Shown here piece by piece: positions 1 through 17,280 of a DNA stretch of 64,000 nucleotides. The notes beneath the pieces are model-generated. The model had not been told where the DNA came from. It worked only from the letters and a program-made list of their open reading frames with translations, and made no database searches. A program made the translations under genes and the position numbers. The stretch comes from Halalkalibacter krulwichiae (GTDB lineage Bacteria; Bacillota; Bacilli; Bacillales; Bacillaceae_D), in contig NZ_CP020814.1 in the NCBI RefSeq assembly GCF_002109385.1, positions 1,261,001-1,325,000 of the forward strand, read 5' to 3'. Every line of letters starts with the position of its first letter. Position 1 is the stretch's first letter.

Positions 1-27
1 AACTTTGGCTGTCTTTGGAATTTTCAA
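1..27 (-). CDS. N-terminus of a gene running off the left edge
   Basis: A TTG start at 27-25 on the minus strand follows an AAGGAGAGG ribosome site at about 33-41. Only nine codons (MKIPKTAKV) are inside the window, so no function can be assigned. The good Shine-Dalgarno spacing is the only support for this being a real gene. Confidence 0.45.
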
Positions 28-391
28 AATTAACCTCTCCTTGATTATTTTATGTATGGATTGAGTTGTATTTAATCATAATCCTGTAGTAATGATACAG
101 TATATGCACAGAGAATCACTTAGGTGTTTTGTTAAGAAAGAAGCATCAATAATCAATCAGCCTACTGTCTAGATGAACAAGAGTTTGCCTGACCCACGAA
201 AAATATGGAACATTAATTCCTGCTGCTCATACATATGGTCTCGCATTTGGAAAATTTCTTAGATTTAAAATAAATCATCTGATTCAATGAAATGTAATGC
301 CTATCATCACCTATTTTTATATGTACCTCAGACGAATTCCTATACCTCCGTTACTCTTCGATCATATTGTATTTGTACGAGGTGGTGTAAA

Positions 392-1090
392 ATGTTTAAA
401 TTATATTTAGATCCTGGTCACGGGGGAGTGGACCCAGGAGCTATTGGCAATGGGATGCAGGAAAAAGAAATTACCTTAAATATTTCCCATAGCATCCGAA
501 ATCTCTTGGAAAACCATTATGAAGGCCTGCAAATTAAAATGAGTAGAACAGCAGATATTACGCGCAGCTTGAAAGAACGTACAGATGATGCGAATGCTTG
601 GGGTGCAGATTATTTTCTATCCATCCACGTTAATGCATTTAACGGTTCAGCTCATGGGTATGAAGATTATATTCATAACAGTTTGTCTGATTCATCGAGA
701 ACAGCGTTAATTCGGGACATTATGCATGAAGAAATTGTCAAAGTAAATAACTTGCATAACCGTGGTAAAAAAAAGGCCGATTTCCATGTACTGCGAGAAA
801 CCAGAATGCCCGCTTTATTAACGGAGAACGGATTTATTGATCATGCAAGCGATGCCCAAAAATTAAGAGACCCGAATTGGCGGCAAGCGGTTGCCCAAGG
901 GCATGTTAATGGGTTAGCACGCGCGTTTAATTTGAAGAGAAAATCGACTAATCTGAAAAGCAATATGGCTATTAAACGTGTAATTGTTGACGGTGTGCAA
1001 GTAGGTGCTTACGCAGAAGAAGAAAATGTGTTGAGAACTGTAAAACGCAACCTGAGAACAGCACAAAGGATTATTATTGAAAATGTGTAG
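392..1090 (+). CDS. N-acetylmuramoyl-L-alanine amidase (Amidase_3 family)
   Basis: This is a zinc amidase that cleaves the bond between MurNAc and L-Ala in peptidoglycan. I chose ATG 392, preceded by GAGGTGG, over an upstream ATG at 287 because the fold starts at once with YLDPGHGGVDPGAIG. Zinc-ligand motifs are DPGHGG (residues about 5-10), the Glu in QEKEI (about 24), SIHVNAF (about 74-80) and the catalytic Glu in LLTENGF (about 145). The last 45 residues (RVIVDGVQVGAYAEEENV...) resemble the short wall-binding tail of Bacillus endolysins (Amidase02_C type). There is no signal peptide, as in CwlC or phage lysins that act from inside. It sits upstream of ger and spoVA genes, a place where spoVA2mob transposons also carry an amidase, so a role in spores is plausible but inferred. 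Confidence 0.88.
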   Translation: MFKLYLDPGHGGVDPGAIGNGMQEKEITLNISHSIRNLLENHYEGLQIKMSRTADITRSLKERTDDANAWGADYFLSIHVNAFNGSAHGYEDYIHNSLSDSSRTALIRDIMHEEIVKVNNLHNRGKKKADFHVLRETRMPALLTENGFIDHASDAQKLRDPNWRQAVAQGHVNGLARAFNLKRKSTNLKSNMAIKRVIVDGVQVGAYAEEENVLRTVKRNLRTAQRIIIENV

Positions 1091-1173
1091 TTTCGTTGGG
1101 AAAACGGTTGCTTGACTGCGAGCACGTTAAAGTTTTATCAAAATGGATAACTAGGCTGGATGAACAAAATATA

Positions 1174-1211
1174 CGCTAAGCCTTTGATGTGACGGGCTTA
1201 GCATTTTTTTC
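1174..1211 (+). terminator. Rho-independent terminator of the amidase gene
   Basis: GCTAAGCC at 1175-1182 pairs with GGGCTTAGC at 1194-1202 and is followed by a run of seven T. Confidence 0.75.
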
Positions 1212-1338
1212 TTGCTCTAAGTTAGTCCGGCCGATATAAGCCAGGACTAGCTTAATATCAGATGAATAGAACGAAGTTGTTGAGGGAATTATAGCTCATG
1301 ATGTTTCTATTTCCAATTGTTGGATTTGAGGTGAGTTT

Positions 1339-2411
1339 TTGCCTAAGATTACTCCTATTCAGTCATACATGATTATTATGCTTTCGGTTGGATTAATGAA
1401 CCACGTGATTATTATCCCTTTACTACTCGAAGCATCAAAGCGAGATGCCTGGCTCGTAGTGCTTCTTGTTTTTGTCGCTTCACCTGTTTGGATTGGTGCT
1501 TGAACTACATCATTCAAAACACGAACAATCAACACATGAAAAAGTGGCTAGATCAGCACTTTGGAAAGTTTTTATCTGCAATCTTAGTAATTATTTATAG
1601 TTTGTTATTATGGCTCATGGGCTTTATTTCCTTAAAAGATACTCTAACATGGACAATCGCATCTTACTTGCCGCAAACACCGATACTAGTTCTTGCGGGA
1701 ACCACACTTGTTGCATGCTTCTTTGCTGCTTTTCAAGGACTCCGTACAATTGCAATTGTGAGCGGAATATTGTTGCCATTTGTTGTTATTCTAGGTCATC
1801 TTGTGGCGATTGCCAATTTTCAGTTTAAAGATTATACCCTGCTTTTTCCTTTGTTAGAAAACGGGACAACTCCATTATGGAAAGGTGTTCCTTACGTTGC
1901 CGGGGGATTGCTGGAGTTGTCTTTCTTGATGTTGCTGATTCAGCACAAATTAACAAAAAAAACAGGATTTAAAAGCTTGATGTTGATGTGCTTCATCCTT
2001 ACAGGACTTACGTTAGGACCATTAATGGGATCGATTGCTATATTTGGCCCTGATGAAGCGGCTAACCAAAGATACCCCGCTTACGCTCAATGGAGAATCG
2101 TGAGACTGGGAGAAGATGTGAAGCATGTCGATTTTTTTTCGATTTATCAGTGGCTATCCGGTACATTTATTCGTGTGTCCCTTTCTATCTATCTCTTGGG
2201 AGAATTGTGGAATTTACAAAAACGCAGATGGTTACCCGTGTTATTTGGCGCATTGGCCATGCTTGTTGCCATTTTGCTGCCGATGAGCGACATGGCTTTT
2301 CTAGACTCGTTAGGAAGATTTTATTTTCCTTCATTTTGTATCTTTACAGCAGGGACCTTGATCCTGTATATCGGTCGAATAATCATCTCAAGAATTAGCC
2401 AAAAGGAGTGA
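1339..2411 (+). pseudogene. GerB-family germinant receptor permease, frameshifted
   Basis: This encodes a spore germination permease (Spore_permease, APC superfamily) of about 358 residues in two frames. The first frame starts at TTG 1339 after GAGGTGAG and gives PKITPIQSYMIIML... with two membrane helices, ending in VWIGA then TGA at about 1501. The second frame picks up at LNYIIQNTNNQ and runs to 2411, with the expected helices and the FYFPSFCIF region near the C-terminus. Adding one base at GCTTGAAC would rejoin the frames, so the gene is one event from intact. It heads a decayed gerB-gerA-gerC set and is 9 bp from the next fragment. In an active receptor this subunit would sit in the spore inner membrane. 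Confidence 0.82.
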
Positions 2412-2420
2412 CTAGCTAGG

Positions 2421-2774
2421 ATGAATAAACTATTCCGACGAATGATAAGATTATTTGGAAATCAGGGGGCAGAAAGCAAGAGGCCAACGCCTAATACAGA
2501 GGCAACCGTCTTGCAACCACTTAATGAACAATCACTCATCCAACACTTTAAAATGTGTCAAGATGTTAAGCACCATGTTTACAAATTAAACCCTAATGAT
2601 GAACAATCGAGAATCCTGTTGCTTTATTATGAGGGTTTAAGTGACAACCAAACGTTCATTCATGAAACTGCGCTTCCTCATTTGACCCGATTTTATGAAA
2701 ACAATGGTTTTCATCATCAGGAGGAAATAGCCGATTCGAGTCAATTACAATTAGAACTCAAGTGCTGGAATTGA
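2421..2774 (+). pseudogene. GerA-family receptor subunit, N-terminal fragment
   Basis: About 115 residues match the start of GerA-type proteins: a basic leader, then LIQHFKMCQDVKHHVYKL and LLYYEGLSDNQTFIHETALPHL, which correspond to the DGLVD-like region of the N-terminal soluble domain. The rest of the protein (about 350 residues, all membrane helices) is missing. The reading frame runs directly into gerC sequence near 2760, so an internal deletion has removed most of gerA and the 5' part of gerC. No functional receptor can be made from it. Confidence 0.75.
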
Positions 2775-3576
2775 TCAACCGTTATCGTGAAATAAGATAC
2801 TTGGCCTGGCTGTTTAGTATAAGAGAGCCTCTTGAAGAAATCTTGCTGGCAACTCCATTTTTTAGATTATCGCCAAAGGCATCCATTCTTCACAATCCCG
2901 AGCAAAGTTTCAGACAGTTCTCTATCCTTGCTCCGGTCCGCCTGCAACAATTTGTACTGGACTCAAACGAAAAGGCTAGAACCAGTTATATACCGGAATT
3001 ATCGCTTCGCAAAGGTCAATGGCAGGAAAGTAATAAACCAAAAGAGCTGCTTAGATATTCAGGCGTACAAGTATATGATCTAAACAATTATTATGGACGA
3101 ATGGATCTTAAGGATTTGTCGGGAATGCCCTGGCTAAGTACTCACACGATCCGAGTACTCTTGATTTGTTTACCGAAGAGAAGCTTGCGGCTGTTCTTGT
3201 CGCAGAAAAACCCAAATATGAAGTGACTCCTATTGTGAAATTGAACAAGGCGTATTTCGATATTTCAGTAAAAGTGAAGGCGGGGATCAATGAATTGCAT
3301 ACGGACCTTACCGAAAAGGAACTCACACAAATGGCTCAGGAAAAAATAGAGGAGCAAATCCGCAAAACGTATCAAACTGCTTTTAAAGAGGGTATAGATA
3401 TTTACAATTTGGGCGAATCTTTGTATCGCAAACATCCACATCAATGGAAGAGCATTGCCACAGGAAAACAGCAACTCGTTTTAAACCAAGATTCCCTGCG
3501 CCATGTAAAGGTTGAGGTGAATATTGTTTACCCTGGAAGATATAAATTACATGAACATGGTGAATCCACCTCGTGA
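2762..3576 (+). pseudogene. Ger(x)C-family germination lipoprotein, 3' part, frameshifted
   Basis: The sequence REIRYLAWLFSIREPLEEIL ... SILHNP ... SGVQVYDLNNYYGRMDLKDLSGMPWL is typical of the middle of GerC lipoproteins. The C-terminal domain continues in another frame from about 3150 (DPSTLDLFTEEKLAAVLV...) to the stop at 3576. The lipoprotein signal and the first 80 or so residues are deleted. The last 60 bases lie inside a 181-bp repeat also found inverted at 11317-11495, so this gene end has been copied together with a transposon terminus. Confidence 0.78.
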
Positions 3577-3696
3577 TTCTGGCAAGTGAAATTATTAACT
3601 CACCTTGCTTCTTCTGCTTAGCGTTGGGGAAGCAAGGTTTTTGTTTCCCAAAAAATAGTTTAACGTTGTAAATCCGCATTTTCCTGACGGAACCCC
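3516..3696. repeat. Long inverted repeat, copy 1: gerC 3' end plus Tn3-type terminal repeat
   Basis: This 181-bp stretch occurs as its reverse complement at 11317-11495 with roughly ten differences. It contains the last codons of gerC, a short spacer, and a 38-bp Tn3-family end at 3659-3696 whose outer edge is GGGGTTCCGTCAGG read on the minus strand. The outer edge points right, so the transposon body lies to the left. Confidence 0.8.
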
Positions 3697-4440
3697 TTAG
3701 AGAAATATGTATGGTTCTTTAGTGCGTACTTAAAGACCATGAGCTATTAAATTAAGATCTTACTTAAAAAGGAACAGAGTAAATATAATCTGTTCTTTTT
3801 TAGTGTGTTAAGCAAAAAAACAAGAACCTTCCTCGTAATAAATCGAACAAATTTATAGAAACCTTACCTTCTTATTCACTGTCGACTCTTCCGTTTTATT
3901 CATAAAAGTGAGATTGTTATGTTTAATTCTACTGCAATGATTATCGGTAAATTTGGATGATCAGGATTTATGTTTAAATCTTTAGGTGTTAAAGCACGTA
4001 TATAATTTTAGGGATTACACATAGTTGACCATTTAGTTCTAAGATAGCATATTCTATACCTTTAATATCTGGATAACCCAAAGAACAAATGCTCGATAAT
4101 AATTCCGTTATAGAATAGCGAATTTGTTTTCAAGTTTTTTTGAACAATCTCTCCATTTTTTATTTAAATGGTCGGCTCCCCAAGGATCAAGCGAGATAGT
4201 GCTTCACATAGACTTAACCTAGATAGCATTATATAAAAAAATAACATAACCTTAATTGGAAAGTTTTTCATTTTTTCTCCTTTTGTAAAATCATTTCTGT
4301 ATTTTATCTCGTTTCAAATAATAATATTCATAAATTTTTTTATAATAATTTGCTACAAATATCACCAATATAATCTCATCAATATAAATTGAAGTTATCA
4401 CACTTCAAAATTCGTATTGAACCCCAAGGAGGATTTCCAA
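3697..4440. other. Non-coding spacer upstream of the spoVA operon
   Basis: About 740 bases of AT-rich DNA with no convincing gene. It holds one hairpin terminator near 3766. I looked for a sigma-G promoter (GHATR, 17-18 bp, CATNNTA) in the last 200 bases and did not find a clear one. Short open stretches near 4000-4170 look like decayed sequence. Confidence 0.5.
3766..3801 (+). terminator. Hairpin terminator
   Basis: GGAACAGA at 3771-3778 pairs with ATCTGTTCT followed by a T run. It would stop transcription arriving from the ger remnant before the spoVA operon. Confidence 0.55.
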
Positions 4441-4647
4441 ATGACAGTAGCAGCAAAAGTAAAACAAACATTAGCTGGATTAAAGAGCGCTCAGGCAAGC
4501 CTAGAAACGTTTGCACTTGAAACAGAAAATGAACAGGCAAAACAGCTTTTCCAACAAGCCGCCCAACAAACACAAGGAGTCGTTGATGGCTTGGAGCCTC
4601 GTCTTCAGCAAATTGAAGAAGAAGAGCCTCAATATAAACAAGAATAA
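4441..4647 (+). CDS. DUF1657 protein, first gene of the spoVA2mob operon
   Basis: This 68-residue helical protein starts at ATG 4441, seven bases after AAGGAGG. The residues TVAAKVKQTLAGLKSAQASLE at the start and EEEPQYKQE at the end are the family signature of DUF1657. The domain also appears as a separate gene at 7087 and as the C-terminal part of the DUF421 protein at 7311. It is the first gene of the mobile spoVA operon in the B. subtilis group. Its biochemical role is unknown. Confidence 0.85.
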   Translation: MTVAAKVKQTLAGLKSAQASLETFALETENEQAKQLFQQAAQQTQGVVDGLEPRLQQIEEEEPQYKQE

Positions 4648-4779
4648 GTTATTAGGGTGACTCAAACAAAAAAGGTCTGGTCGCATTTTTTTACAATAGT
4701 GAGCGTTATGCACAATTGTGTGTGGGCAGACTCTTTAGAGTCACCCTTTGTTATACATAACTATTATGAGAGGAGAAAA

Positions 4780-5217
4780 ATGATGAAAGGGATAATCAAC
4801 GGAATAATTGTGGTAAGCTTGTTAGCCGGTTGTCAAACATTAACAGGGACTGGATATGATGTAAGGCCAATCCAGTTATCAGAAACAGTCATTATTGATC
4901 AAGAACGCGCTGATGAAGCAAAGATAATTGTCCTCTCAATGGAAGAAGTAGTCGAAATTAAAGGTGTTTCAGATGAAGACAATATTTATTTGGCCCCAAA
5001 AGTAAAGCACTTTGACCGTTTCAGGTTAAAAAAAATTCGCAAACAAAGTCATGATGCTGTAAAAAAACGTTATCCACAGGCAACCGTTCATGTATCAACG
5101 GATCAAAAGATATTCATGGAACTTGAAAAACTAGAACAAGAGCTACAAAAAAGAACGATAAGTGAAAAACGATTAAAACAAAAATTAAAAAAGCTTGATG
5201 AAATGATGAAAGGATAA
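4780..5217 (+). CDS. YhcN/YlaJ-family sporulation lipoprotein
   Basis: I chose ATG 4780 (AGAGGAG just upstream), which gives a 145-residue lipoprotein with a short hydrophobic leader and the lipobox LLAGC, Cys at about residue 18. The C-terminal third is charged and helical (LEKLEQELQKR...KLKQKLKKLDEMM). A longer frame opens at 4657 but would bury the signal peptide. It is the second gene of the spoVA2mob-type operon, 14 bp from spoVAC. Proteins of this family are made in the forespore and placed at the inner spore membrane; the precise task is not known. Confidence 0.85.
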   Translation: MMKGIINGIIVVSLLAGCQTLTGTGYDVRPIQLSETVIIDQERADEAKIIVLSMEEVVEIKGVSDEDNIYLAPKVKHFDRFRLKKIRKQSHDAVKKRYPQATVHVSTDQKIFMELEKLEQELQKRTISEKRLKQKLKKLDEMMKG

Positions 5218-5231
5218 TGAGGTGAACATAG

Positions 5232-5711
5232 ATGTCTTCGAGTAAAAAGAAAAATGTAACTCCTGCTCAAGAAAAGTATCAGAAATTAGCGAGTAACTAC
5301 GAAAAAAAACGTCCAGTTGTTCAAAACTGTATTCGAGCTTTTTTTATTGGTGGCCTTATTTGTTTAATCGGACAAGGCTTTCATGTGTTTTATTACACTT
5401 TCTTTGATTTCACTCAACGAACTGCAGGCGATCCAACAGTAGCAACGCTAATCTTAATTTCCGTTTTATTAACTGGATTTGGAGTATATGATCGATATGC
5501 GCAATTTGCTGGTGCTGGTACGGCAGTGCCTGTCACAGGATTTGCCAATTCAATTGCATCGGCTGCTATTGAACATCGAACAGAAGGTTATGTCCTTGGT
5601 GTAGGTGGAAAAATGTTTAAACTCGCTGGATCCGTTATTGTGTTTGGTACAGTGGCAGCCTTTTTTATTGCTATTATAAAGACGATTCTCATTCAATGGG
5701 GAGGGTTGTAG
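5232..5711 (+). CDS. spoVAC: SpoVAC, dipicolinate channel subunit (mobile spoVA copy)
   Basis: This 159-residue membrane protein belongs to the SpoVAC/SpoVAEb family, which moves Ca-dipicolinate into the forespore and releases it at germination. It has a soluble head (SSSKKKNVTPAQEKYQKLASNYEKK), a helix with AFFIGGLICLIGQGF, then TLILISVLLTGFGVYDRYAQFAGAGTAVPVTGFANSIASAAIEHRTEGYVLGVGGKMFKLAGSVI, the conserved core. RBS is GAGGTG. It is followed one base later by spoVAD. Length is as in chromosomal SpoVAC (about 150). Confidence 0.95.
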   Translation: MSSSKKKNVTPAQEKYQKLASNYEKKRPVVQNCIRAFFIGGLICLIGQGFHVFYYTFFDFTQRTAGDPTVATLILISVLLTGFGVYDRYAQFAGAGTAVPVTGFANSIASAAIEHRTEGYVLGVGGKMFKLAGSVIVFGTVAAFFIAIIKTILIQWGGL

Positions 5712-5712
5712 G

Positions 5713-6729
5713 ATGCTAAGAGGCCATCAAACATGGGAATTCGAGAACCAACCAGTTATACTTTCAACCGGTACTGTTGGTGGTCCTTTTGAAGCCAAAG
5801 GTGAATTAGCCGACGATTTTGATTTATTACATGAGGATTTATGGCTTAAACAAGATTCTTATGAAAAGGCCCAAAAAGTTTTAATTGAAAAATCTATTTC
5901 GCGTGCCATTGAAAAGTCTGAATTACGAAATGAAGATATTCAATTTATGTTTGCTGGGGATTTAATTAATCAGATAACCCCTTCTAGCTTTGCCAGCAGA
6001 ACTCTCGCTATTCCTTATTTGGGTCTATTTGGTGCTTGTTCAACATCGATGGAAGGGTTAGCACTAGCGGCTTTTCTCGTGAATGCTAAAGGTGCTGAAA
6101 GAGTGGTTACGGCTGCTTCCAGTCACAATGCAGCTACCGAAAAGCAATTTCGATATCCAACTGAATATGGAGGACAGAAACCCCCTACTTCACAATGGAC
6201 CGTAACGGCTTCTGGTGCTGCTATTATTTCTAATGTTGGAGATGGTCCCGTTGTAACATCAGCTACGATAGGAAAAGTCATAGACATGGGTTTGTCAGAT
6301 CCATTTAATATGGGCGGAGCAATGGCGCCTGCTGCAGCAGATACCATCGTTGCTCATTTTAGAGATCGAAACCTTCCACCAGACCATTACGATCTTGTTG
6401 CTTCTGGGGATTTAGGTGAAATTGGCCTTCCCATTGCAAAAGACCTTCTGAAGCAGAAAGGGTTGGATTTACCAGAAGATACGTTCCAAGACTGTGGTTT
6501 GATGATTTATCGTGAAGGACAACCGGTCCTTGCTGGAGGTAGCGGTGCTGGATGTTCAGCGGCAGTAACATATGGCCATTTATTAAATCGGATGAAAAGA
6601 GGCGAACTAAATCGAATATTAATTGTAGCAACAGGAGCATTATTGTCACCTCTATCCTATCAGCAACAGGAGACGATTCCTTGTATCGCTCATGCTGTTT
6701 CAATTGAGGCAGGAGGTGGAATGACGTGA
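5713..6729 (+). CDS. spoVAD: SpoVAD, dipicolinate-binding protein
   Basis: SpoVAD is a thiolase-fold protein on the inner spore membrane that binds dipicolinic acid and works with SpoVAC and SpoVAEb. The 338-residue product has the family length. The thiolase-like nucleophile region [23 protein letters not shown] lies around residues 98-120, and [32 protein letters not shown] is the conserved second half. Its stop codon overlaps the start of the next gene (GTGA), so the two are translationally coupled. No frameshift is seen. Confidence 0.95.
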
Positions 6730-7076
6730 TTTTTATAACGGCATTTGTTGTTGGTGGCCTTATTTGTGTCATCGGACAAATCTTAATGGATGTATTTAAA
6801 CTAACACCAGCTCATACGATGAGTGCGCTCGTTGTATCAGGTGCTATTTTGGATGGCTTTGGATTATATGAACCATTAATCGATTTTGCTGGTGCAGGTG
6901 CGACTGTACCTATTACAAGCTTTGGTAATTCACTTGTACATGGGGCCATGGCTGAAGCGGAAGCTAATGGCTTAGTAGGTGTAATTACAGGGATTTTTGA
7001 AGTGACAAGCGCTGGGATTTCCGCAGCGATCATTTTTGGATTTATTGCTTCACTTATATTTAAACCAAAAGGATAA
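6726..7076 (+). CDS. spoVAE: SpoVAEb, channel subunit paralogous to SpoVAC
   Basis: This 116-residue integral membrane protein starts at a GTG overlapping the spoVAD stop by 4 bases; AGGAGGTGG lies seven bases before it inside spoVAD. It carries the same core as Spo[16 protein letters not shown], then [30 protein letters not shown]. Four membrane segments fit the sequence. It completes the SpoVAC-AD-AEb dipicolinate transport unit. Confidence 0.94.
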
Positions 7077-7086
7077 AGGAGTTGAA

Positions 7087-7296
7087 ATGATGACAGTAGG
7101 AAGTCAGGTTCAAGGATTACTTATTTCATTACAATCAATTGATGCGATCCTTTCATCACTAGCGATAAAAACGAAGGAACGTGAAGCAAGTGAAGCTTTT
7201 CATCAAGGTGCATTAAAAACCCGAAAAGTCATACAAGAAATCCAAAAAAGAAAGGGTCAAATTGAATTTGAGGAGCCACAATATCAACAAACGTAA
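7087..7296 (+). CDS. DUF1657 protein, second copy
   Basis: This 69-residue protein starts at ATG 7087 or 7090 after AAGGAG. It begins MTVGSQVQGLLISLQSIDAILSSL and ends EEPQYQQT, the same N- and C-terminal signature as the protein at 4441. It lies 10 bp after spoVAEb and 14 bp before the DUF421 gene, so it belongs to the same operon. Confidence 0.85.
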   Translation: MMTVGSQVQGLLISLQSIDAILSSLAIKTKEREASEAFHQGALKTRKVIQEIQKRKGQIEFEEPQYQQT

Positions 7297-7310
7297 AAGG
7301 AGGGATTAAC

Positions 7311-8170
7311 ATGCAAGGTTGGATTGAGGTTGCACTTCGAAGTTTCGTTGGTTTTATATTGTTAATTGCCATAGGTAGAATTTTTGTCAGAAAGCCCATT
7401 GGAGAAACATCGCAACTAGAATTTGGTCTAATTGCTGCGGTATCTATTATTTTAGCAATCGGTTCAATCCAGCTAGCGATACCGATCTCATACTTATTAG
7501 TTGCGTTACTCATTTGGGCCGGGGGACGATTGGAATTGCATTTTTCAGTCTTAAAAATGCCTCTTTCCGTTCAACCATTTTTGGGAAAGGTATTCCTATT
7601 ATGAAAGATGGAAAAATTCTTGAGGATAACATGAAAAAGCATCAGTTAACTACTGACGAATTACTCCGAAAACTTAGAGCAAAACAAGTGTTTCAGGTGG
7701 CGGATGTTGAATTTGCTGTTCTAGAAGGGAATGGTGAGTTAAATGTTCTTGTTAAAAAAGAACAACAGCCCCTTACTGCGAAAATGTTGCATCATCATGT
7801 ACCACCCGTTAAGGAACCTGAAACGGTTATTATGGATGGGAAAATCCTTCATGAACCATTGGCTACAAGAGGATTAAGTCAGGAATGGTTAAAAACGGAG
7901 TTAAAGAACATGGATGCCATTGTTGAAAATGTCTTCATGGCACAAATAGATGAATATGGTCAGTTAACAATTGATTTATTTGATGATATTCTTCAAGTAC
8001 CACAGCCAACTGAATTACCATTGCTTGAAGCAAGCATCAAAAAAGTAAATGCCGATATGGAATTGTTTGCCCTTGATACAGAAAATGTACAGGCTAAAAA
8101 AACATATAAATGGTGTGCTGAACAAATGAAACAAGTTCACGATATGGTTTCTCCCTTTATAAAATCGTAG
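7311..8170 (+). pseudogene. DUF421-DUF1657 fusion ('2Duf', YetF-like), frameshifted
   Basis: The gene encodes a protein of about 286 residues: three membrane helices (from MQGWIEVALRSFVGFILLIAIGR), the DUF421 soluble domain (GKGIPIMKDGKILEDNMKKH...LLRKLRAKQVFQVADVEFAVLE) and a C-terminal DUF1657 part (LLEASIKKVNADMELFALDTEN). In B. subtilis-group spores the equivalent 2Duf protein is the main heat-resistance factor of spoVA2mob. Here the frame changes at the G run 7521-7525; adding one G gives a continuous protein (WAGGTIGIAFFSLKNASFRS). It is either a sequencing under-call or a real knock-out. RBS is GGAGGG and the start is ATG 7311. Confidence 0.85.
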
Positions 8171-8214
8171 GTTATTATGTTGGGTTAGTAGAAGGATATA
8201 TTTCACCTTTTCGT

Positions 8215-8699
8215 GTGACGTTGGAATATGTGATTTCGTTTATTAAAGCGCTAGGTATGTTTATTGTTGGGCTTACAGCTTTCCGTTTAATGGGCAGTCA
8301 AGCCGTTGGCAGATTAACTGATTTTGATCTAGTAGTAGCAATTGCTATTGGTGCGTTAATCGCTAAACCACTATCAGACCCGGATTTAAATCTGTGGATT
8401 TCAGTGGTTGCTATTTTAGCACTCGTTATCGCCCAGATCGTTTTTAGTTGGCTCTCCCTTAAAAGTATAGCCTTTGAAAGAATCGTCGCAGGAAAGCCTA
8501 TCAAGGTGATTGAAAATGGTTCCATCATTATGAAAGGGTTACATAAAGCAAGATTAAGCAAAAATGAATTGAACGAAGAATTACGAGTAAAAGGATTTAA
8601 ATCCCCTCAGAAGTCCAACAGGTATTTTTGGAACCCAATGGTAAGATCAGTGTGTTCGAGAAATCAAACCAGGAGCTGTCAAGCAAAGATCATGTTTAA
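8215..8699 (+). pseudogene. Second DUF421 (YetF-like) membrane protein, frameshifted near the end
   Basis: A GTG start at 8215 gives three N-terminal helices (YVISFIKALGMFIVGLTAFRLMG...LVVAIAIGALIAKPL) and the DUF421 domain (GKPIKVIENGSIIMKGLHKARLSKNEL). At CCCC 8603-8606 the frame breaks; adding one C yields SEVQQVFLEPNGKISVFEKSNQELSSKDHV and a stop at 8697-8699, a normal family ending. The ribosome site is weak: AGAAGG lies about 19 bases upstream. It is the last large gene of the spoVA2mob-type operon. Confidence 0.8.
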
Positions 8700-8789
8700 T
8701 ACCTTTGCAATTCTGTATAAAATACAAAAAAACCGAAGAAAATAGGATTCTATTCTATTTACAAATTTTGATTTGGAGGAACTAGCAAC

Positions 8790-8948
8790 ATGTTAACGAA
8801 TTATGAATTCTTTGTACCTGTACGAGTAAGACATAAGCAAAAGGAATTTGATGTGGAGCAGCTTTTTAACAACCCATTGATTCATCGACAAATTAAAGGC
8901 GATAAGGTCTATATACCTTTAGATACAAAGAGATTATGGGGATATTAA
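8790..8948 (+). CDS. Small protein of unknown function (52 aa)
   Basis: ATG 8790 follows TTGGAGGA at good distance. The product MLTNYEFFVPVRVRHKQKEF... is soluble and slightly basic, with no recognisable domain. It lies 90 bp after the DUF421 gene and before the operon terminator, so it is probably co-transcribed with the spoVA operon. Confidence 0.55.
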   Translation: MLTNYEFFVPVRVRHKQKEFDVEQLFNNPLIHRQIKGDKVYIPLDTKRLWGY

Positions 8949-9007
8949 TTTTAAAAAGAGCTTTAAATAATATATTTAGGATAGATAGGTGAAATACTAG
9001 AAAATAA

Positions 9008-9786: not shown

Positions 9787-10344
9787 TTAAGGTTTAGATA
9801 AAGAGGCTAGTTTTAGTATGAAAGCACGAGTTACAATTCCAACAATGATGTAATACATGAATGAATATCTGTATCTCCACTCTACATAATTAACAAGATT
9901 GAACCACTCACAAAAAGGTTCACCAATAAAGGCATATGTTAGTGCCATAATAACCTGGGCTAAAATATAAAATTTCCATGTTCTAAAATATTGATATAAC
10001 AACATGTAAGCTACAGGTACCATTTCAAAAGGAAAGGCCCAAGGAATAATCGGTAGGAATGCAATGGGGTAATCCCAAAAACTATATTGTGCACCAACTA
10101 CATCTAATAAGGTTGTTATCATCATAATTATGGTACCAAATAATAAAATTTCTAAAATAATGTTCCGTTTAACAAGTTTAACCCATATAACCCAAGGCAC
10201 AATTAAAAAACCAACTAACATCCACCATTCCCAAGTTAAAAACTCATTTTTTAGCCAACCATTTAACTCTAAATGATACAGCTTATCTTCTAATAAACGG
10301 ATTTCTTTAAGATTTTCAACTATATTATCTATTGATATCACCAC
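9787..10344 (-). CDS. CBO0543-like multi-helix membrane protein
   Basis: A 185-residue protein with five or six hydrophobic helices. The motif series LLDVVGAQYSFWDYPIAFLPIIPWAFPFE, YMLLYQYF, FIGEPFCEWFNLVNYVEWRYRYSFMYYIIVGI matches the CBO0543 family of uncharacterised membrane proteins in spore-forming Firmicutes. The start at 10344 is preceded by a weak ribosome site. No function is known. Confidence 0.7.
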   Translation of the reverse strand: MVISIDNIVENLKEIRLLEDKLYHLELNGWLKNEFLTWEWWMLVGFLIVPWVIWVKLVKRNIILEILLFGTIIMMITTLLDVVGAQYSFWDYPIAFLPIIPWAFPFEMVPVAYMLLYQYFRTWKFYILAQVIMALTYAFIGEPFCEWFNLVNYVEWRYRYSFMYYIIVGIVTRAFILKLASLSKP

Positions 10345-10545: not shown

Positions 10546-10583
10546 GGGGTCCTGCCGACAAAACGCGGATATTATACGGTAAG
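10546..10583. repeat. Tn3-family terminal inverted repeat (38 bp)
   Basis: It starts GGGGTCCTGCCGAC and ends TATACGGTAAG, the pattern of Tn3-family ends. The body lies to the right and holds the 3' end of a tnpA gene read leftwards towards this end, the usual geometry. The sequence differs from the ends at 3696 and 11317, so it belongs to a different element. Confidence 0.75.
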
Positions 10584-10601
10584 ACATTTTATGGAAGTTA
10601 A

Positions 10602-10644
10602 AACCTTGATTTTTCTCCTTAGCGTAGAAAAATCAAGGTTTTAT
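10602..10644. terminator. Bidirectional terminator at the tnpA 3' end
   Basis: AACCTTGATTTTT pairs with AAAAATCAAGGTT around a 13-base loop; A and T runs on both sides allow function in both directions. Confidence 0.7.
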
Positions 10645-11316
10645 TTATATTCTAAGTGGGCGCAGGGAATGGACAGAGTTTGAAATCTCAGGTTTAAATG
10701 AATATTCACCTAAGAAGTTAATGTATTCCCATCCCAAAGGAGATATATGAGGAAGTAATTCCTCTTTATATTTTCCTGTTGTTTTCAAATGTTAAATTTC
10801 TTGTGATAGATACACGGTATTCCAAGTACTAATAGCATTTATAATGAGGTTTAAGGCGCTGGCACGTTGTAATTGATCTTGTAATGCTCTTTCTCTAAGT
10901 TCCCCATGTTTCCCAAAGAAAATAGCTCGTGCCAAGGCATTCATTGCTTCACCCTTATTTAATCCACGTTGGATTCGCCGACGTAATGTTTCGCTAGAAA
11001 TATAATCTAAGATAAACAAGGTTTTATCTATACGTCCCATCTCCCTTAAAGTTGTTGCAAGGCTATTTTGACGAGAATAAGAACCTAGTTTTCCCATGAT
11101 GAGAGAAGCAGAGATCCATCTTCAAAATTAACCCCATCTAATTCTGTAATATTAGCTTTAATCCATTCAAGCCGATTATGTAATGCATCCATTTTCTCTT
11201 CCAAGTATTCATCAACAGAAGGAGGTGCGATAAGTTCATTAAGATGCTTGTTTTGCTCCCATGTTTCTTTTGCCACTAAATAATTATCAAAATCTTGGTG
11301 TTGACGACTTCCTTTA
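10645..11316 (-). pseudogene. tnpA: Tn3 transposase remnant with internal deletion
   Basis: Read from 11316 leftwards, the frame gives SRQHQDFDNYLVAKETWEQNKHL...ALHNRLEWIKANITELDGVNFEDG, the middle of a Tn3 TnpA. It then jumps at about 11110 to MGKLGSYSRQNSLATTLREMGRIDKTLFILDYISSETLRRRIQRGLNKGEAMNALARAIFFG, the C-terminal catalytic part with the last acidic residue region. About 300 residues are missing between them. The final stretch (SPLGWEYINFLGEYSFKPE...SLRPLRI, stop 10645) is in yet another frame. The 5' half was cut off exactly where the terminal repeat at 11317 begins, so another Tn3 element landed inside this gene. Confidence 0.85.
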
Positions 11317-12025: not shown

Positions 12026-12215
12026 ATTATTATTGGTCTTGAAGGGTTTGTATTCTGCTATTTGGGTTGATTCTATGGAAGTTGTGTTAAAAGAAACACT
12101 CTAAAAATTGGTACAGATACGAATCCATTTGTACAGAACGTAAAGTAAAGGATTTATGAATAAACGTATACAAAATGGGAATAATATCTTTGAAAATAAA
12201 CAAGGAGGATTGAAT

Positions 12216-12653
12216 ATGTCATTAGTACCTTATGATCCATTTAGACAATTATCAAATATGAGAAGAGAATTCGATCGTTTCTTTTCGGAATTACCAATTT
12301 CGTTTGACAATGAACATGGTATAGGTGGGATTCGAGTAGATGTTCATGAAACTGAGAATGAGGTTGTGGCAACATGTGATTTACCTGGTCTTGAAAAGAA
12401 AGAAGATGTAGATATTGATATACAAAATAACAGATTAAGCATTAGTGGTTCTATCAAGCGTACCAATGAAATAAAAGAAGAAAATATGTTAAAAAAGGAA
12501 CGCTATACAGGTCGTTTTCAACGTATGATAACACTTCCAAGCCCCGTTTCACATGATGGGGTTAAAGCTACCTACAAAAATGGAATACTTGAAATAACAA
12601 TGCCAAAAGTGGCGAAGGACGTAAAAAAGAAGATAGATGTAAGTTTCCAGTAA
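12216..12653 (+). CDS. Hsp20/alpha-crystallin small heat-shock protein
   Basis: This 145-residue ATP-independent holdase starts at ATG 12216, after CAAGGAGGA. The alpha-crystallin domain spans about residues 38-145: IRVDVHETENEVVATCDLPGLEKKEDVDIDIQNNRLSISG..., and the second-last strand has YKNGILEITMPK. The N-terminus (SLVPYDPFRQLSNMRREFDRFF) is typical of spore-former Hsp18 proteins. It is tightly followed by a 57-codon gene (one base apart). Its location between Tn3 ends with ger and cwlJ genes suggests it travels with a spore module. Confidence 0.9.
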   Translation: MSLVPYDPFRQLSNMRREFDRFFSELPISFDNEHGIGGIRVDVHETENEVVATCDLPGLEKKEDVDIDIQNNRLSISGSIKRTNEIKEENMLKKERYTGRFQRMITLPSPVSHDGVKATYKNGILEITMPKVAKDVKKKIDVSFQ

Positions 12654-12654
12654 C

Positions 12655-12828
12655 ATGAGTAAATTGCTACCGGTCATGAAAGATTTCGGGTATGACTACA
12701 TGCAGGAATTAGCTAAAGAAAGTCCTGATTTGGTGGATTTGATAATTTTAACTATTCATTCACCTGAACAACAAAAGAAAAAGGTCATTTCTGAGTTAAC
12801 AGATAATATTAAGAAAAACTTTTTATAA
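12655..12828 (+). CDS. Small protein coupled to Hsp20 (57 aa)
   Basis: ATG 12655 lies one base after the hsp20 stop, so translation is probably by re-initiation. The product (MSKLLPVMKDFGYDYMQELA...) is soluble, with mixed charge and no known motif. A terminator follows at 12908. The coupling is the main reason to call it a gene. Confidence 0.5.
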   Translation: MSKLLPVMKDFGYDYMQELAKESPDLVDLIILTIHSPEQQKKKVISELTDNIKKNFL

Positions 12829-12907
12829 ATCTGATAAGGATCATAGGCTTTATATAAGCTAATAAATAATCATTATAGTACCTAAATTGTAATTAATTCA
12901 TCGAAAG

Positions 12908-12938
12908 AGAAAGACAGGTTAAATAACTTGTCTTTTTT
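12908..12938 (+). terminator. Terminator after the hsp20 operon
   Basis: AAAGACAGGTT and AACTTGTCTTT form a stem followed by a T run. Confidence 0.7.
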
Positions 12939-13013
12939 GTTTTACAATTAACAAAAGATTATTTGGTCAATTTTTGTAATAACATGTTTTCTATAACCAA
13001 CATAAATAATTAT

Positions 13014-13043
13014 GAATAACAATACCATAATTTTGTAATGCTA
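13014..13043 (+). promoter_or_regulatory. Putative sigma-G promoter of the ger operon
   Basis: GAATA at 13014-13018 fits the sigma-F/G -35 GHATR. After 18 bases AATGCTA (13037-13043) differs from CATNNTA only at the first position. It lies 30 bp before the gerA start, and ger operons are forespore genes in B. subtilis. Confidence 0.45.
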
Positions 13044-13072
13044 ACTGTAAACTAACATTTTGAGAGGATATT

Positions 13073-14437
13073 ATGTACATAAATAAAAACTTATCTGTAC
13101 ATGTCAAAGATCGATTAGATTATTGTGATGACTTAGTAATTAGGACATTTCCAGAGTTGAAAATTGAGGTATTATATTTTGGTCATCTAGTAGGGGAAGA
13201 AGAGTTGAAAAATAACATTTTACAACCTTTTTCAAATACAAATGATGAGGAAGTAAAAATTATATTAAGAAGAAAACAATATCAACAAGAAGAAGATATT
13301 AATTTAATGGTTAAGGGAGTACTTGAAGGAAAAGCATTAATAATATACCAAAATTCACTTGCGTATGTAGTGGATATTTATGTTCCTAAAACAAGAAGTG
13401 TCACTCCAGCAGAAATGGAAACAGTAATTGTAGGATCGAAAGAAGCCTTTATAGAAGATATTGGAACTAACTTGTCTATGATTAGGAGAAGGGTTAAATC
13501 AGACTATTTAAAAGTTATTAGTTATAACATAGGTACCATCACACAAACGAAAATGTATTTGTTATATATTGAGGGGATCACTTCTCCTATATTAGTTAAA
13601 GGATTGCAAGAAAAGATCAAAAACATTGATATAAAAGGAGTTAATGACTTAAATCAAGTGATACAGTATTTAGACAAGAAGCCGTTATCTGTTTTTCCGC
13701 AGTATTTTACGACGGAGAGACCAGATGTCTCGACATCTAAGTTACTTGAGGGCAGAGTTCTTTGTTTAATGGATGGCAGTCCCTACTCATTATCAACCCC
13801 AACAAATTTCTTTGAATTCTTTCAATCGCCAGATGATTATAATCAACGGTGGTTACTTGGTACTTTATCTAGGTTATTAAGATTTGCTGCACTATTTATA
13901 ACATTATTCGCTTCCGCTTTTTATGTAGCAGTGTCAATGTTTCATTATGAGATTATCCCTGTTCAATTACTTCATGAGTTTATTCGATCAAGAAGTAAAG
14001 TACCATTTAATCCAGTAATTGAGGCATTAATTATTGAAGGTATTATTGAATTGTTAAGAGAAGCAGGAGCAAGACTGCCTTCTAAAATTGGACAAACAAT
14101 TGGCATAGTTGGGGGAATAGTAATTGGTACCGCGGCAGTAGATGCTGGTTTTTCAAGCAATGTTCTAATTATTGTAGTTTCTATATCTGCCATGTCATCT
14201 TTTGTAGTACCACATATCATAATGACAGCATCTTTAAGAATTACTCGATTTTACTTTATTATTCTTGCATCCATTTTTGGTTTTTTTGGGATCATTTTTG
14301 GATTTACTATTTTAGTGATTCACCTCTGCAGGTTAAAGAATTTAGGGGAGTATTATTTAAAGCCTATATCCCCACTATCTTTGAAGGATATAAAAGATAC
14401 CATCATTCGTGCTCCTTATCAGTTTTTTAAGAAATAG
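13073..14437 (+). CDS. gerA: GerA-family germinant receptor A subunit
   Basis: This 454-residue subunit of a spore nutrient receptor (family label only, ligand unknown) starts at ATG 13073 after GAGAGGA. The N-terminal soluble domain (1 to about 230) includes VVDIYVPKTRSVTPAEMETVIVGSKEAFIEDIGTNLSMIRRR, the conserved 'EP..E..i+GpreaF.E.l.tN..liR+R' block; here the usual EP is TP. PQYFTTERPDVSTSKLLEGRVLCLMDGSP precedes the membrane half with helices and FNPVIEALIIEGIIELLREAGARLPSKIGQTIGIVGGIVIG. It is shorter at the N-terminus than most GerA proteins (about 480-500). It forms an operon with gerB (19 bp) and gerC (overlap). Confidence 0.92.
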   Translation: MYINKNLSVHVKDRLDYCDDLVIRTFPELKIEVLYFGHLVGEEELKNNILQPFSNTNDEEVKIILRRKQYQQEEDINLMVKGVLEGKALIIYQNSLAYVVDIYVPKTRSVTPAEMETVIVGSKEAFIEDIGTNLSMIRRRVKSDYLKVISYNIGTITQTKMYLLYIEGITSPILVKGLQEKIKNIDIKGVNDLNQVIQYLDKKPLSVFPQYFTTERPDVSTSKLLEGRVLCLMDGSPYSLSTPTNFFEFFQSPDDYNQRWLLGTLSRLLRFAALFITLFASAFYVAVSMFHYEIIPVQLLHEFIRSRSKVPFNPVIEALIIEGIIELLREAGARLPSKIGQTIGIVGGIVIGTAAVDAGFSSNVLIIVVSISAMSSFVVPHIIMTASLRITRFYFIILASIFGFFGIIFGFTILVIHLCRLKNLGEYYLKPISPLSLKDIKDTIIRAPYQFFKK

Positions 14438-14456
14438 GTTAAGGAGGGAGCCTTAT

Positions 14457-15539
14457 ATGCAAACTGAAAAATTGAAACCGTTCTATCTCTTTTTTATTAC
14501 TTATATGACTCAAACGGGTATAGTGCTCTTTATGTTACCTAACATGATAGCCAATTATTTTGGATATAATGGTTGGTTAATGATTATACCCATTTCAGTT
14601 TTTGCTATGATTCAAATTGGATTAATTGCTGGAATTTATTATTTTAATAAAGGAAGTTCAATTTTTCAAACAATCGAGACTTCTTTTTCAAAGGTGAATA
14701 TTATTGCCAAACCTTTGTATCTTTGTTTGAGTATATTTTGGTCCGTTTTTTCCATTACAGTTGCAAAACAATATGTACATGTTATGAAGTTTTTATACTT
14801 TCCACAAACAAATATACAATGGTTTTTACTGTTAACATTAATTCTTACGTATTACCTTGTGACAAGTGGAATCGTAACAATTGCTCACGTCTCTACATTG
14901 TTTTTCTTCTTATCAGCACCAATTATATTGCTTTTAATTTATTTTGTTCCCGATTTCTCTTTTTTGCGATTTTCTACCTTTGTTTTTAATGAACATAATG
15001 ACTTTTATGGAGGCATGATAGAGGTATATACAGCATTTCTAGGGTTTGAAGTAACACTATTCCTGTTTCCTTACATAAAAAAAGAGAAAAAGATTTTTAA
15101 ATACGTGTTTTTGGGGCACCTGTATACGACATTACTATATTTGAGTTTAACGATTTTTTGTTACGGGTTTAATAGTTTCCAACAATTAAATTATCAAGTT
15201 TATCCCGTAATAAATTTATTGCAGTATATAGAATTTGACTTTATTGAACGATTGGACTCCGCATTTTTTATATTATTTTATTTGAAGTTAATAATTACTA
15301 TAACGATGTATATATGGATTAGTTTAGTTACGTTTAAAAGAGTTGTTATGTGGAGTGCTCAACGTAGTGCTTTTGTATTATTGGTAGTTGGATACTTAGT
15401 GACATTACCATTTGTCACCAAAAATGAACTTACTTCTTTGTTATCTTTATTAGCAAAAGTTCAAATACTAATATCCATTTTCTTACCACTGTTAGTATTG
15501 ACAATTATATTTTTAAAAAGAAGGAGAAAACATGTCTAG
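14457..15539 (+). CDS. gerB: GerB-family germinant receptor permease subunit
   Basis: ATG 14457 follows AAGGAGGG at ideal distance; an upstream TTG at 14409 overlaps gerA and is not needed. The 360-residue product has about ten membrane helices from FYLFFITYMTQTGIVLFMLPNMIANYFGYNGWL, the typical GerB start, and belongs to the amino acid permease superfamily. In GerA-type receptors this subunit binds the germinant. The stop at 15539 overlaps the gerC start by 8 bases. Confidence 0.92.
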   Translation: MQTEKLKPFYLFFITYMTQTGIVLFMLPNMIANYFGYNGWLMIIPISVFAMIQIGLIAGIYYFNKGSSIFQTIETSFSKVNIIAKPLYLCLSIFWSVFSITVAKQYVHVMKFLYFPQTNIQWFLLLTLILTYYLVTSGIVTIAHVSTLFFFLSAPIILLLIYFVPDFSFLRFSTFVFNEHNDFYGGMIEVYTAFLGFEVTLFLFPYIKKEKKIFKYVFLGHLYTTLLYLSLTIFCYGFNSFQQLNYQVYPVINLLQYIEFDFIERLDSAFFILFYLKLIITITMYIWISLVTFKRVVMWSAQRSAFVLLVVGYLVTLPFVTKNELTSLLSLLAKVQILISIFLPLLVLTIIFLKRRRKHV

Positions 15540-16614
15540 AATCTTACTAATTATTCTAATATTGTTGGTACTACCGGGATGTAGGGACCAAAAAATTGTA
15601 GAAGAGTTAGGGTTTATTCATACAATAGGTTATGAGTTAATTGAAGAAGGAGAAAATTCAGGGAAACTTGAAGTGACAATATCTCTACCAGTAGCAGAAA
15701 CCTTAAAACAAAAGACAATCACTACAGTGGTTGAAACTCCGAAGGAATCTCCTATATTTTTAAATAAAAAAACAGCTAAAAATTTAGTTTCCGGGCAAGT
15801 TCGAAGTATTTTAATTGGAGAGAAACTAGCAGAAAAGGGAGTATGGGATTTAATTGACACATTTTATCGAGACCCTGTTTCAAGACCTACAGTAAAACTG
15901 TCAATAGTAAAAAGCAATCCAAAACAATTATTATCAAAGGACTATTCAGAATATCAAATGGTTGACATTGTAATCGAAAATATTCTAAAAAAAGAAGCAA
16001 GGTTAAATACAATTCCTGAAATGGATATACATAAATTTGCAAAAGATTACCTAGACGATGCTATTGATCCTATTGCTCCTATTATTTTACAATCGGAAGA
16101 CGGAATAATGTCGGACGGAATAGGGTTATTTAGTGGTGACCAGTTAAAAACAACCATACCAGCCATACAAGCAAGAATCTTTTTTTTACTAACTGGAGAG
16201 TTTAAAGAAGGTGATTTATTAATTAAAAACGAAGAAGAAAAAGTATTATTTAGTTTTATAACGAATAAAAGAAGTATAGATGTTACACTAGGAGATAAAG
16301 AAGAAATAGATGTGAAGTTGTCAATTGATTTTAAAGGCTTCTTACTGGAATACCAAGGAAATAAAGACATCACTAATGAAAAAGAAATAGAAGCATTAGA
16401 GAATTACATTCAAGAAAATATTGAAAATCAAATACGAGATATATTGGAAACTATGAAGGAACATCAAATAGATAACCTCGGTTTAGGAAAGTATATAAAA
16501 CAAAAAATGGATTATCAAACATGGAAAAACTTGGACTGGCCCAAGACAATTGACAGGTTGAATGTTACCCCTAGTGTTACCGTTAAAATAATTGATACCG
16601 GGATGGTTAAATAA
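15532..16614 (+). CDS. gerC: Ger(x)C-family germination lipoprotein
   Basis: This 360-residue lipoprotein has signal MSRILLIILILLVLPGC with the lipobox Cys at residue 17. The body includes RDQKIVEELGFIHTIGYELIEEG at the start and IQENIENQIRDILETMKEHQIDNLGLGKYIKQ near the end, a conserved GerC C-terminal motif. It overlaps gerB, so the three subunits are translated together. It anchors to the spore inner membrane. The lipid attachment site looks intact. Confidence 0.92.
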   Translation: MSRILLIILILLVLPGCRDQKIVEELGFIHTIGYELIEEGENSGKLEVTISLPVAETLKQKTITTVVETPKESPIFLNKKTAKNLVSGQVRSILIGEKLAEKGVWDLIDTFYRDPVSRPTVKLSIVKSNPKQLLSKDYSEYQMVDIVIENILKKEARLNTIPEMDIHKFAKDYLDDAIDPIAPIILQSEDGIMSDGIGLFSGDQLKTTIPAIQARIFFLLTGEFKEGDLLIKNEEEKVLFSFITNKRSIDVTLGDKEEIDVKLSIDFKGFLLEYQGNKDITNEKEIEALENYIQENIENQIRDILETMKEHQIDNLGLGKYIKQKMDYQTWKNLDWPKTIDRLNVTPSVTVKIIDTGMVK

Positions 16615-16691
16615 AAAAATTTGCTGAGTATTTATCATGGCTTTAATGAATAGTATTTAAGTACGACTTAGTTTATGCAAAGGAGGGCATC

Positions 16692-17123
16692 ATGGCTGTA
16701 ATAAAGGCAAGTTATAATGATAAAAGACTTCTAGCAAGACTTATCCGTGCGGAAGCAGAAGGTGAAGGGGAGCAAGGAATGTTATTAGTCGCCAATGTTT
16801 GTGTAAATAGAGTACGAGTAAGGTGTTTAGATTTTGTTGATATTAATTCTGTAGAACGAATGGTTTGGCAGTCCCCTGGAGGATTTGAAGCCGTACACCA
16901 TCCATACTTTTATCAAAGGGCAAGAGAAAAAGAAATCAGATTAGCAGAACGAATAATTAATGGTGAAAGGCATCATCCAGCAGAACGAGCACTATGGTTT
17001 TTTAGACCGAATGGCACTTGCCCTGCCCAGTGGTGGAATCAGTGGAACAGTGGCCGATATAAACTTCATTGCTTCTACTCACCTGTTGAATCCGAATGTC
17101 CAGATGTATATAGGGTTTATTGA
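16692..17123 (+). CDS. cwlJ: CwlJ-type spore cortex-lytic hydrolase, copy 1
   Basis: This 143-residue Hydrolase_2 protein degrades cortex peptidoglycan on germination and is triggered by Ca-dipicolinate in B. subtilis. The family core is LLARLIRAEAEGEGEQGMLLVANVCVNRV (catalytic Glu within AEAEGE), WQSPGGFEAV and ALWFFRPNGTCPAQWW near the C-terminus. ATG 16692 follows AAAGGAGGGC. There is no signal peptide, as in CwlJ, which is placed in the coat layer from the mother cell. It follows gerABC by 77 bp. Another copy at 34663 is about 85% identical by eye. The usual partner gerQ is not present. Confidence 0.92.
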   Translation: MAVIKASYNDKRLLARLIRAEAEGEGEQGMLLVANVCVNRVRVRCLDFVDINSVERMVWQSPGGFEAVHHPYFYQRAREKEIRLAERIINGERHHPAERALWFFRPNGTCPAQWWNQWNSGRYKLHCFYSPVESECPDVYRVY

Positions 17124-17239: not shown

Positions 17240-17280
17240 GATTTAAACTTGTATTAAGAAAATCTTGAGGTGATAAATAT

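Follow-up and report, generated by a model that had tools for sequence, protein, structure and literature searches.

We identified a 21,776-bp element in the genome of Halalkalibacter krulwichiae (4.61 Mb, single contig) that is quite probably a composite Tn3-family transposon, in which two inverted Tn1546-like elements surround a spoVA2 operon of the Halalkalibacter lineage. The analysis centered on a 64,000-nucleotide (nt) window (the whole stretch of DNA analyzed, NZ_CP020814.1 positions 1261001-1325000). Coordinates are window positions, and a negative number gives the bp left of the window start; genomes, contigs, and loci carry our own handles (G, C, and L numbers) where these are needed. 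A terminal-repeat scan placed the element at -4435 to 17340 and located its four Tn1546-type ends. These ends, the matching 5-bp flanks of the outermost pair, the identities of the arms, and a split between the phylogenies of backbone and operon are observed; the composite route itself is what we infer from them. The backbone is 94.7% identical in DNA to that of transposons that carry the mobile operon spoVA2mob in the Bacillus subtilis group, but the operon is only approximately 70% identical, it nests among Halalkalibacter operons, and a single clade of transposon copies is rejected; therefore, the same vehicle appears to carry an independently captured spoVA2 operon. We consider it likely that the Tn1546-type backbone has served repeatedly as a carrier of spore genes, onto which spoVA2 was loaded at least twice independently (once from the donor of the B. 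subtilis-group operon and, via a Tn3 composite, once from the Halalkalibacter lineage), with modules of several families brought together in one mobile spore kit. The modules joined here are an amidase-ger unit (98% identical to its counterpart elsewhere), an Hsp20-ger-hydrolase module (98%), and the spoVA2 block of the genus.

Ends and insertion site of the element

Only the outermost ends of the element share a matching 5-bp flank. AAGGT immediately precedes the left end and follows the right end, and the inner tips are flanked by TTAGA and CTTTA. With inverted repeats of approximately 38 bp and this 5-bp target-site duplication, the element is Tn1546-like. Random 5-mers match in this DNA with a chance of approximately 0.0016 per pair, or approximately 1% across the six or fewer pairs of tips. 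All six element copies with both ends complete have matching flanks: AAGGT here, ATCAT in the element on Bacillus velezensis plasmid pDMB05-2 (L056), AAATT, TTCCT, and TTGTC in three copies in G171, and TATTT in G294. We left unscored the copy in G318, whose tips are altered, those in G287 and G384, for which one end was found, and that in G375, whose short contig yielded no end.

The two inner repeats match at 39/39 bases and sit within longer inverted repeats of 138 and 66 nt (91%). Both are right-type ends, 96.1% identical to each other over 181 nt, and the one at 11317 is 96.2% identical over 183 nt to the right end of the G294 transposon. The outer right end aligns with the outer left end, which belongs to the left-arm unit (unit A), over 70 nt at 86%, and it is probably left-type. 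Read along the element, the order is left, right, operon, right, left, an arrangement in which two units in inverted orientation enclose a cargo; TTAGA and CTTTA, which flank the inner tips, would then remain from the first insertion of each unit. An earlier note on this DNA, made from the sequence alone, had placed Tn3 ends on both sides of the operon. Repeats are present at both places (3658-3696 and 11317-11355), but they face inward and do not bound one operon unit, and the true outer ends lie at -4435 and 17340.

In the route that we propose, the donor DNA would have carried an amidase/ger-bearing Tn1546-like transposon on one side of a Halalkalibacter-lineage spoVA2 operon and, on the other side, a second Tn1546-like element in inverted orientation, since largely replaced. 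The transposase (TnpA), acting on the two outermost ends, would then have moved the whole stretch into the gap between hxlR and zwf, duplicating AAGGT. These are the first sizeable genes outside the element on the left and right, respectively, with names read from translations rather than from a family search.

Several observations weigh against this route. The second Tn1546-like unit survives only as two ends (181 and 70 nt), whereas the left unit is complete at both ends. The left-type nature of the outer right end is weakly founded, because the right-type ends match it as well (46 nt at 91%). We saw no donor replicon in which the two units enclose the operon, nor an empty site: the joined flanks were crossed by no match in 13 genus genomes (8 gave some match, own included), and a search by the position of zwf also yielded none. 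Within the operon block, the synonymous distance (dS) to the copy in Alkalihalobacillus deserti is 1.14 in the second DUF1657 gene (DUF1657b) and 1.92 at the start of the 2Duf gene (DUF421+DUF1657), compared to 0.26 to 0.62 in the other genes; this stretch (7090-7520) suggests recombination within the block, with DUF1657b and the 2Duf start perhaps derived from another copy. Finally, the A. deserti copy is the closest relative of the operon and yet only 87% identical in DNA, which indicates that the true donor is unsampled.

The completeness of the inner repeats, the reduction of the second unit to mere remnants, and the missing empty site would also fit a history without a composite, in which unit A inserted beside a resident spoVA block and the outer AAGGT match is a coincidence. 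We regard this history as rather improbable, given the approximately 1% chance of such a match and the fact that the flanks of unit A itself do not match (AAGGT left, TTAGA right). In addition, two flanking DUF421 genes were seen at all 14 spoVA2 loci compared (L040-L053; 12 from the genus and 2 from the family, with the right gene partial in L045), whereas the transposon block stands without them. Unit A keeps both of its own ends and the operon lies outside it; unit A as the carrier of the operon was ruled out by tip orientation.

Backbone and operon have different relatives

Tn1546-like transposons with spoVA2mob, an amidase gene, and ger genes are known in B. subtilis B4146, Bacillus amyloliquefaciens DSM7 (three published copies), and Bacillus licheniformis, and the amidase and ger genes form operon 1 of the B4146 element (PMC5133452). 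The SpoVAC and SpoVAD accessions of the B. velezensis element, WP_013352385.1 and WP_013352386.1, are listed for spoVA2mob (PMC8005191), which makes this element a fair reference. Backbone identity in DNA extends over 4,686 nt to the B. velezensis element and to each of the three G171 copies (94.7%) and over 2,680 nt, from tnpR to the amidase gene, to G287 (99.3%). The operon in the same pairs aligns in parts, at approximately 70% over 1.9-2.0 kb and 65% over a further 0.4-0.5 kb; against B. velezensis and G171, it is 69.6% identical over the alignable 2,041 nt. Gene by gene, identity to the published-type elements is 95% for tnpA, 99% for tnpR, and 98% for orf150 (a 150-amino-acid [aa] open reading frame [ORF]), versus 70% for SpoVAD, 37-38% for YhcN, and 53% for 2Duf. 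At ≥95% identity, orf150 occurs in 5 of 397 genomes drawn from the order (own included).

The element thus resembles the spoVA2mob transposons in tnpA, tnpR, ends, and 5-bp target-site duplication, in orf150 (L056 and G171), in the amidase-ger genes, and in a seven-gene spoVA2-type operon followed by a yetF-like gene. It differs in that the operon belongs to another clade and sits outside the amidase/ger unit, with a right end facing it on each side, in its broken 2Duf gene, in an extra Hsp20-ger-hydrolase arm, and in length (21.8 kb, compared to 12,645 bp in L056 and the three G171 copies). We found no cls or Mn catalase gene among the scanned ORFs of the element, although no search was aimed at these genes. 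The earlier note's reading of the operon as spoVA2mob-like in gene order and carried by Tn3-family DNA was borne out; the carrier is Tn1546-like, and its amidase and ger genes are cargo known from the published element. The note's suggestion that the same cargo moves widely was not, since the backbone is the same but the operon nests among operons of the host genus.

The host genome contains three spoVA operons: a canonical one (L009), a spoVA2-type one between two DUF421 genes (L008), and the transposon copy. We built a tree of SpoVAC, SpoVAD, and SpoVAEb with 46 rows from 47 sources, including one of the three G171 copies and some of 60 relatives; G045 was left out (SpoVAC and SpoVAEb not found), SpoVAEb of G042 and G053 was omitted (SpoVAC cross-hit), and SpoVAC is partial for G005 and G008. 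The window copy and the second spoVA2 copy of A. deserti (G004:C11) are sisters (support 100/98) inside a 13-row clade composed entirely of genus genomes (99/97); two further genus genomes, G007 and G012, branch outside it where the tree is unresolved. A separate clade (100/100) unites the copies of B. velezensis pDMB05-2, G171, G287, and G042, the last of them provisionally counted with the published-type transposon copies. Forcing the window copy to join these four costs 183 log units (approximately unbiased [AU] test, p 1.5e-70). The comparison with chromosomal spoVA that the earlier note had proposed groups this copy with A. deserti C11 in the genus clade, apart from the published-type copies.

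One could suppose that the B. subtilis-group spoVA2mob transposon itself was transferred with its cargo, given the same gene order, the same backbone, and an amidase and ger genes as in operon 1 of B4146. This is extremely improbable: the tree refutes it for the operon, which is only approximately 70% identical, and it stands for the backbone alone; the operon, moreover, lies outside unit A, a unit that exists elsewhere without spoVA.

A second possibility is that the spoVA2 operon native to the genus was duplicated in an ancestor of this lineage and the duplicate captured later, rather than an operon being acquired from another species. The position of the copy inside the genus-operon clade fits this, and an old duplication inside the genus is possible because a clade of the window copy, A. 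deserti C11, and the host's own chromosomal copy was not rejected (AU test, p 0.14). A clade of the window copy and the own chromosomal copy alone was rejected (p 0.006), which rules out direct sisterhood, and the synonymous distance between these two is 1.05-1.98 or saturated. Of the 12 other genus genomes, 10 have two SpoVAD matches, and the extra match in G008 is a fragment. G004 alone yielded a second full-length SpoVAD of spoVA2 type, and that gene contains one in-frame stop. We therefore treat a duplication within the genus as possible but doubtful. The earlier note had weighed a genome with no other spoVA operon and a copy of the species' own chromosomal lineage; two other operons are present and grouping with the own copy alone fails, although the copy does belong to the lineage of the genus.

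Among known systems, the nearest to the operon is the second A. deserti copy (L039), its sister in the tree and 87% identical over the whole block. It differs in that the 54 kb examined there contain neither Tn1546-type ends nor tnpA, that its spoVAD has an in-frame stop, and that its 2Duf gene is open. On the reversed 54-kb stretch, approximately 5 kb downstream of this copy, there is a third partial spoVA2-like piece (34950-36478; DUF1657, SpoVAEb remnant, DUF1657), approximately 80-83% identical in DNA to the window copy. Named relatives of the operon are Halalkalibacter species, A. deserti, and Bacillus suaedae (9 loci). The chromosomal spoVA2 operons of Halalkalibacter-group genomes (L008, L040-L051) have the same genes in the same order, with SpoVA proteins 75-93% identical (in L050, spoVAC is in two pieces, the second at 60%); they differ in standing between two DUF421 genes, in an open 2Duf gene in L008, L040, L041, and L043, and in that no Tn1546-type ends were found there.

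Plasmid spore clusters on Priestia megaterium pBMV_2 and Metabacillus sp. pB218 carry a similar spoVA2 operon and add orf150-like and phospholipase D-like genes or amidase, hydrolase, CBO0543, and DUF421 genes; their SpoVAD and amidase proteins are 54-72% identical to those here, and their incomplete annotation shows no Tn3 transposase on these stretches. On pBMV_2 (L148), zwf, a winged-HTH regulator gene, and hxlA adjoin each other and resemble the host genes that flank the transposon here; the spoVA2 operon and the orf150-like and phospholipase D-like genes are on the same stretch. Four phage records have SpoVAD, all below 60%. A Klebsiella grimontii plasmid record (CP079755.1) has a 70% SpoVAD match and an annotated spoVAE, perhaps through contamination or misassembly.

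The element is of a known kind, that of Tn1546-like elements with amidase, ger, and spoVA2mob genes. The operon lies inside a Tn1546-like element with terminal repeats and a target-site duplication, as spoVA2mob does, but in a probable composite and outside the unit transposon, and it has neither the B. subtilis-group operon lineage nor an open 2Duf gene. Because of the lineage and the 2Duf gene, we do not class it as spoVA2mob: it is a spoVA2-type operon mobilized by the transposon family of spoVA2mob. As far as our literature search goes, four features are new: the loading of spoVA2 onto this backbone as an independent event, the composite arrangement, an amidase-ger unit that occurs on its own with no spoVA, and the additional germination arm. 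That search, of titles and abstracts with most subscription journals outside its coverage, returned nothing on spore transposons of this genus or on the composite form. If spoVA2 has been picked up repeatedly by one transposon family, then the mobility of spore traits would be a repeatable process and not a one-off piece of luck among food bacilli, and screens based solely on the operon sequence could overlook independent loadings.

State and likely function of the spoVA2 genes

The genes that the earlier note had listed between 392 and 8948 (amidase, ger relic, DUF1657, YhcN, spoVAC, spoVAD, spoVAEb, DUF1657, 2Duf, and yetF-like) are all present by family matches, and from the first DUF1657 gene to the DUF421+DUF1657 gene their order is that of spoVA2mob. 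When the sequence ahead of the first DUF1657 gene was aligned between the window copy and the chromosomal copies, no promoter stood out as clearly conserved.

The SpoVA2 transporter of dipicolinic acid (DPA) has been described as consisting of SpoVAC, SpoVAD, SpoVAEb, and a YhcN-like cap, named SpoVANJ2 (PMC13059800). All four genes are open in the transposon copy, and in each the nonsynonymous distance (dN) to relatives is well below dS (for SpoVAD, 0.041/0.34 against the A. deserti copy). Because the four genes are open and dN is far below dS, the likeliest product is a second SpoVA2-type DPA transporter, which, judging from what is known of the family, the transposon copy would most likely add to the forespore membrane.

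The 2Duf gene is broken into two frames here, whereas it is open at 286-289 aa in L008, L040, L041, and L043 (289 aa in the host's own chromosomal copy, L008). The extreme wet-heat resistance of spoVA2mob strains is believed to depend mainly on 2Duf, although it is not clear whether 2Duf suffices alone (PMC10126465), and 2Duf is described as undetected in resistant spores (PMC8005191). Because 2Duf is broken, the high heat resistance that the earlier note associated with spoVA2mob is not supported here, and this copy is unlikely to make spores much more resistant to wet heat. In this natural copy, the four-part SpoVA2 transporter is uncoupled from 2Duf, a separation relevant to the question of what in spoVA2mob confers resistance (PMC10126465, PMC8005191).

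In both 2Duf pieces dN is far below dS, and therefore the break is either recent or a sequencing error. Single frame breaks can indeed be base-calling errors, and if those in 2Duf, yetF, and the ger genes all were, the element would be fully functional. We think this unlikely, since there are several separate breaks and base-calling cannot explain the loss of approximately 1.55 kb of ger DNA. The amidase gene is also frame-broken in the G294, G287, G318, and G375 copies, though open here and in G384.

The left and right arms

Both tnpA and tnpR of unit A lie left of the window, and orf150 ends just inside it. The tnpA gene is intact (988 aa; transpos_Tn3, 1014.7 bits), and among the matches listed its transposase is 94.8% identical to Enterococcus plasmid transposases, which we take to be Tn1546 copies, and approximately 95% identical to Bacillus ones. 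The tnpR product is a serine resolvase of 232 aa, with a longer C-terminal end than the 199-aa ORF in G294. The counterpart of unit A is a 9,685-bp transposon of G294, whose genome belongs to another family; the two are 98.0% identical over 7,201 nt and 98.3% identical over 939 nt. The G294 transposon is a free Tn1546-like amidase-ger element with the same ends and order and its own target-site duplication, but it differs in lacking spoVA, in having open ger A, B, and C genes (515, 357, and 387 aa), and in its frame-broken amidase gene. Unit A DNA joins G294 positions 10177 and 11733, with most of ger A lost, and its ger B and ger C are each frame-broken; its amidase is 99% identical to the G384 copy. 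The amidase-ger unit of G318:C5 (L081) is 97% identical; at either end, its outermost bases depart from the usual Tn1546-type tip, and the two ends are similar to one another there.

To the right of the operon, 11496-12110 looks, by eye, like a serine-recombinase remnant. Judging from its predicted genes, the Hsp20-ger-hydrolase module of the right arm probably contributes a germinant receptor together with a cortex hydrolase. Tn1546-type ends were not found in 19.9 kb around each of the G294 and G039 loci of this module. Table 1 gives the coordinates of all features.

Table 1. Features of the element in window coordinates
Feature	Position	Strand	Remarks
Outer left end	-4435 (L007 4565-4603)		AAGGT immediately before it
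Unit A, window part	1..3696	+	Whole unit -4435 to 3696; Tn1546-like; tnpA, tnpR, orf150, amidase, ger relic
N-acetylmuramoyl-L-alanine amidase (Amidase_3, CwlD-like)	392..1090	+	Open; E 3e-49; ORF may start at 287
ger permease (B) gene (Spore_permease)	1339..2411	+	Frame broken near 1500; counterpart in G294 unit is a 357-aa ORF
ger A gene start beside frame-broken ger C (GerAC relic)	2421..3576	+	~1.55 kb of G294 absent between them
Right-type terminal repeat of unit A	3658-3696	-	Tip rightward, toward operon; flank TTAGA
spoVA2 block, Halalkalibacter type	4380..8956	+	Continuous 87.2% DNA match over 4,602 nt to A. deserti G004:C11
DUF1657 gene	4441..4647	+	Family match
YhcN/YlaJ lipoprotein gene	4780..5217	+	25.3 bits, just below curated cut-off 26.3
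spoVAC	5232..5711	+	Family match
spoVAD	5713..6729	+	E 2e-157
spoVAEb	6726..7076	+	Family match
DUF1657 gene (DUF1657b)	7090..7296	+	Family match
2Duf gene (DUF421+DUF1657), frame broken	7311..8170	+	ORFs 7311-7604 and 7514-8170 in different frames
Short DUF421 (yetF-like) gene, tail frame-broken	8215..8745	+	158-165 aa homologues after 2Duf in L040, L041, L043
CBO0543-family gene	9787..10344	-	91.5% DNA over 599 nt to part of G287 element
Diverged Tn3 element: left end and tnpA 3' remnant	10546..11316	-	72% aa identity to unit A tnpA over 156 residues; adjoins repeat at 11317
Right-type end of second Tn1546-like unit, inverted, and ger C tail	11317-11495 (repeat 11317-11355)	+	Tip leftward; flank CTTTA
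Hsp20-ger-hydrolase module	12111..17296	+	98.4% over 5,186 nt to G294 near 375 kb; 97.8% over 4,282 nt to G039
Hsp20	12156-12653	+	Within module; 57-aa ORF also in module
ger A, open	13073-14437	+	Right-arm module
ger B, open	14409-15539	+	Right-arm module
ger C, open	15532-16614	+	Right-arm module
Hydrolase_2 cortex-hydrolase-like gene	16692-17123	+	Right-arm module
Outer right terminal repeat, probably left-type	17302-17340	-	Tip rightward; AAGGT follows at 17341-17345

Other Tn3-family DNA in the window

The window contains a second, different Tn3-family transposon at 28199-34146, with ends identical at 37/38 bases and 5-bp flanks that do not match (GAAAA/GACTA); it carries a resolvase gene (30512-31066) and a gene for a 982-aa transposase (31098-34046). 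A further resolvase gene and an ORF for a 592-aa Tn3 transposase are located at 23127-26717.

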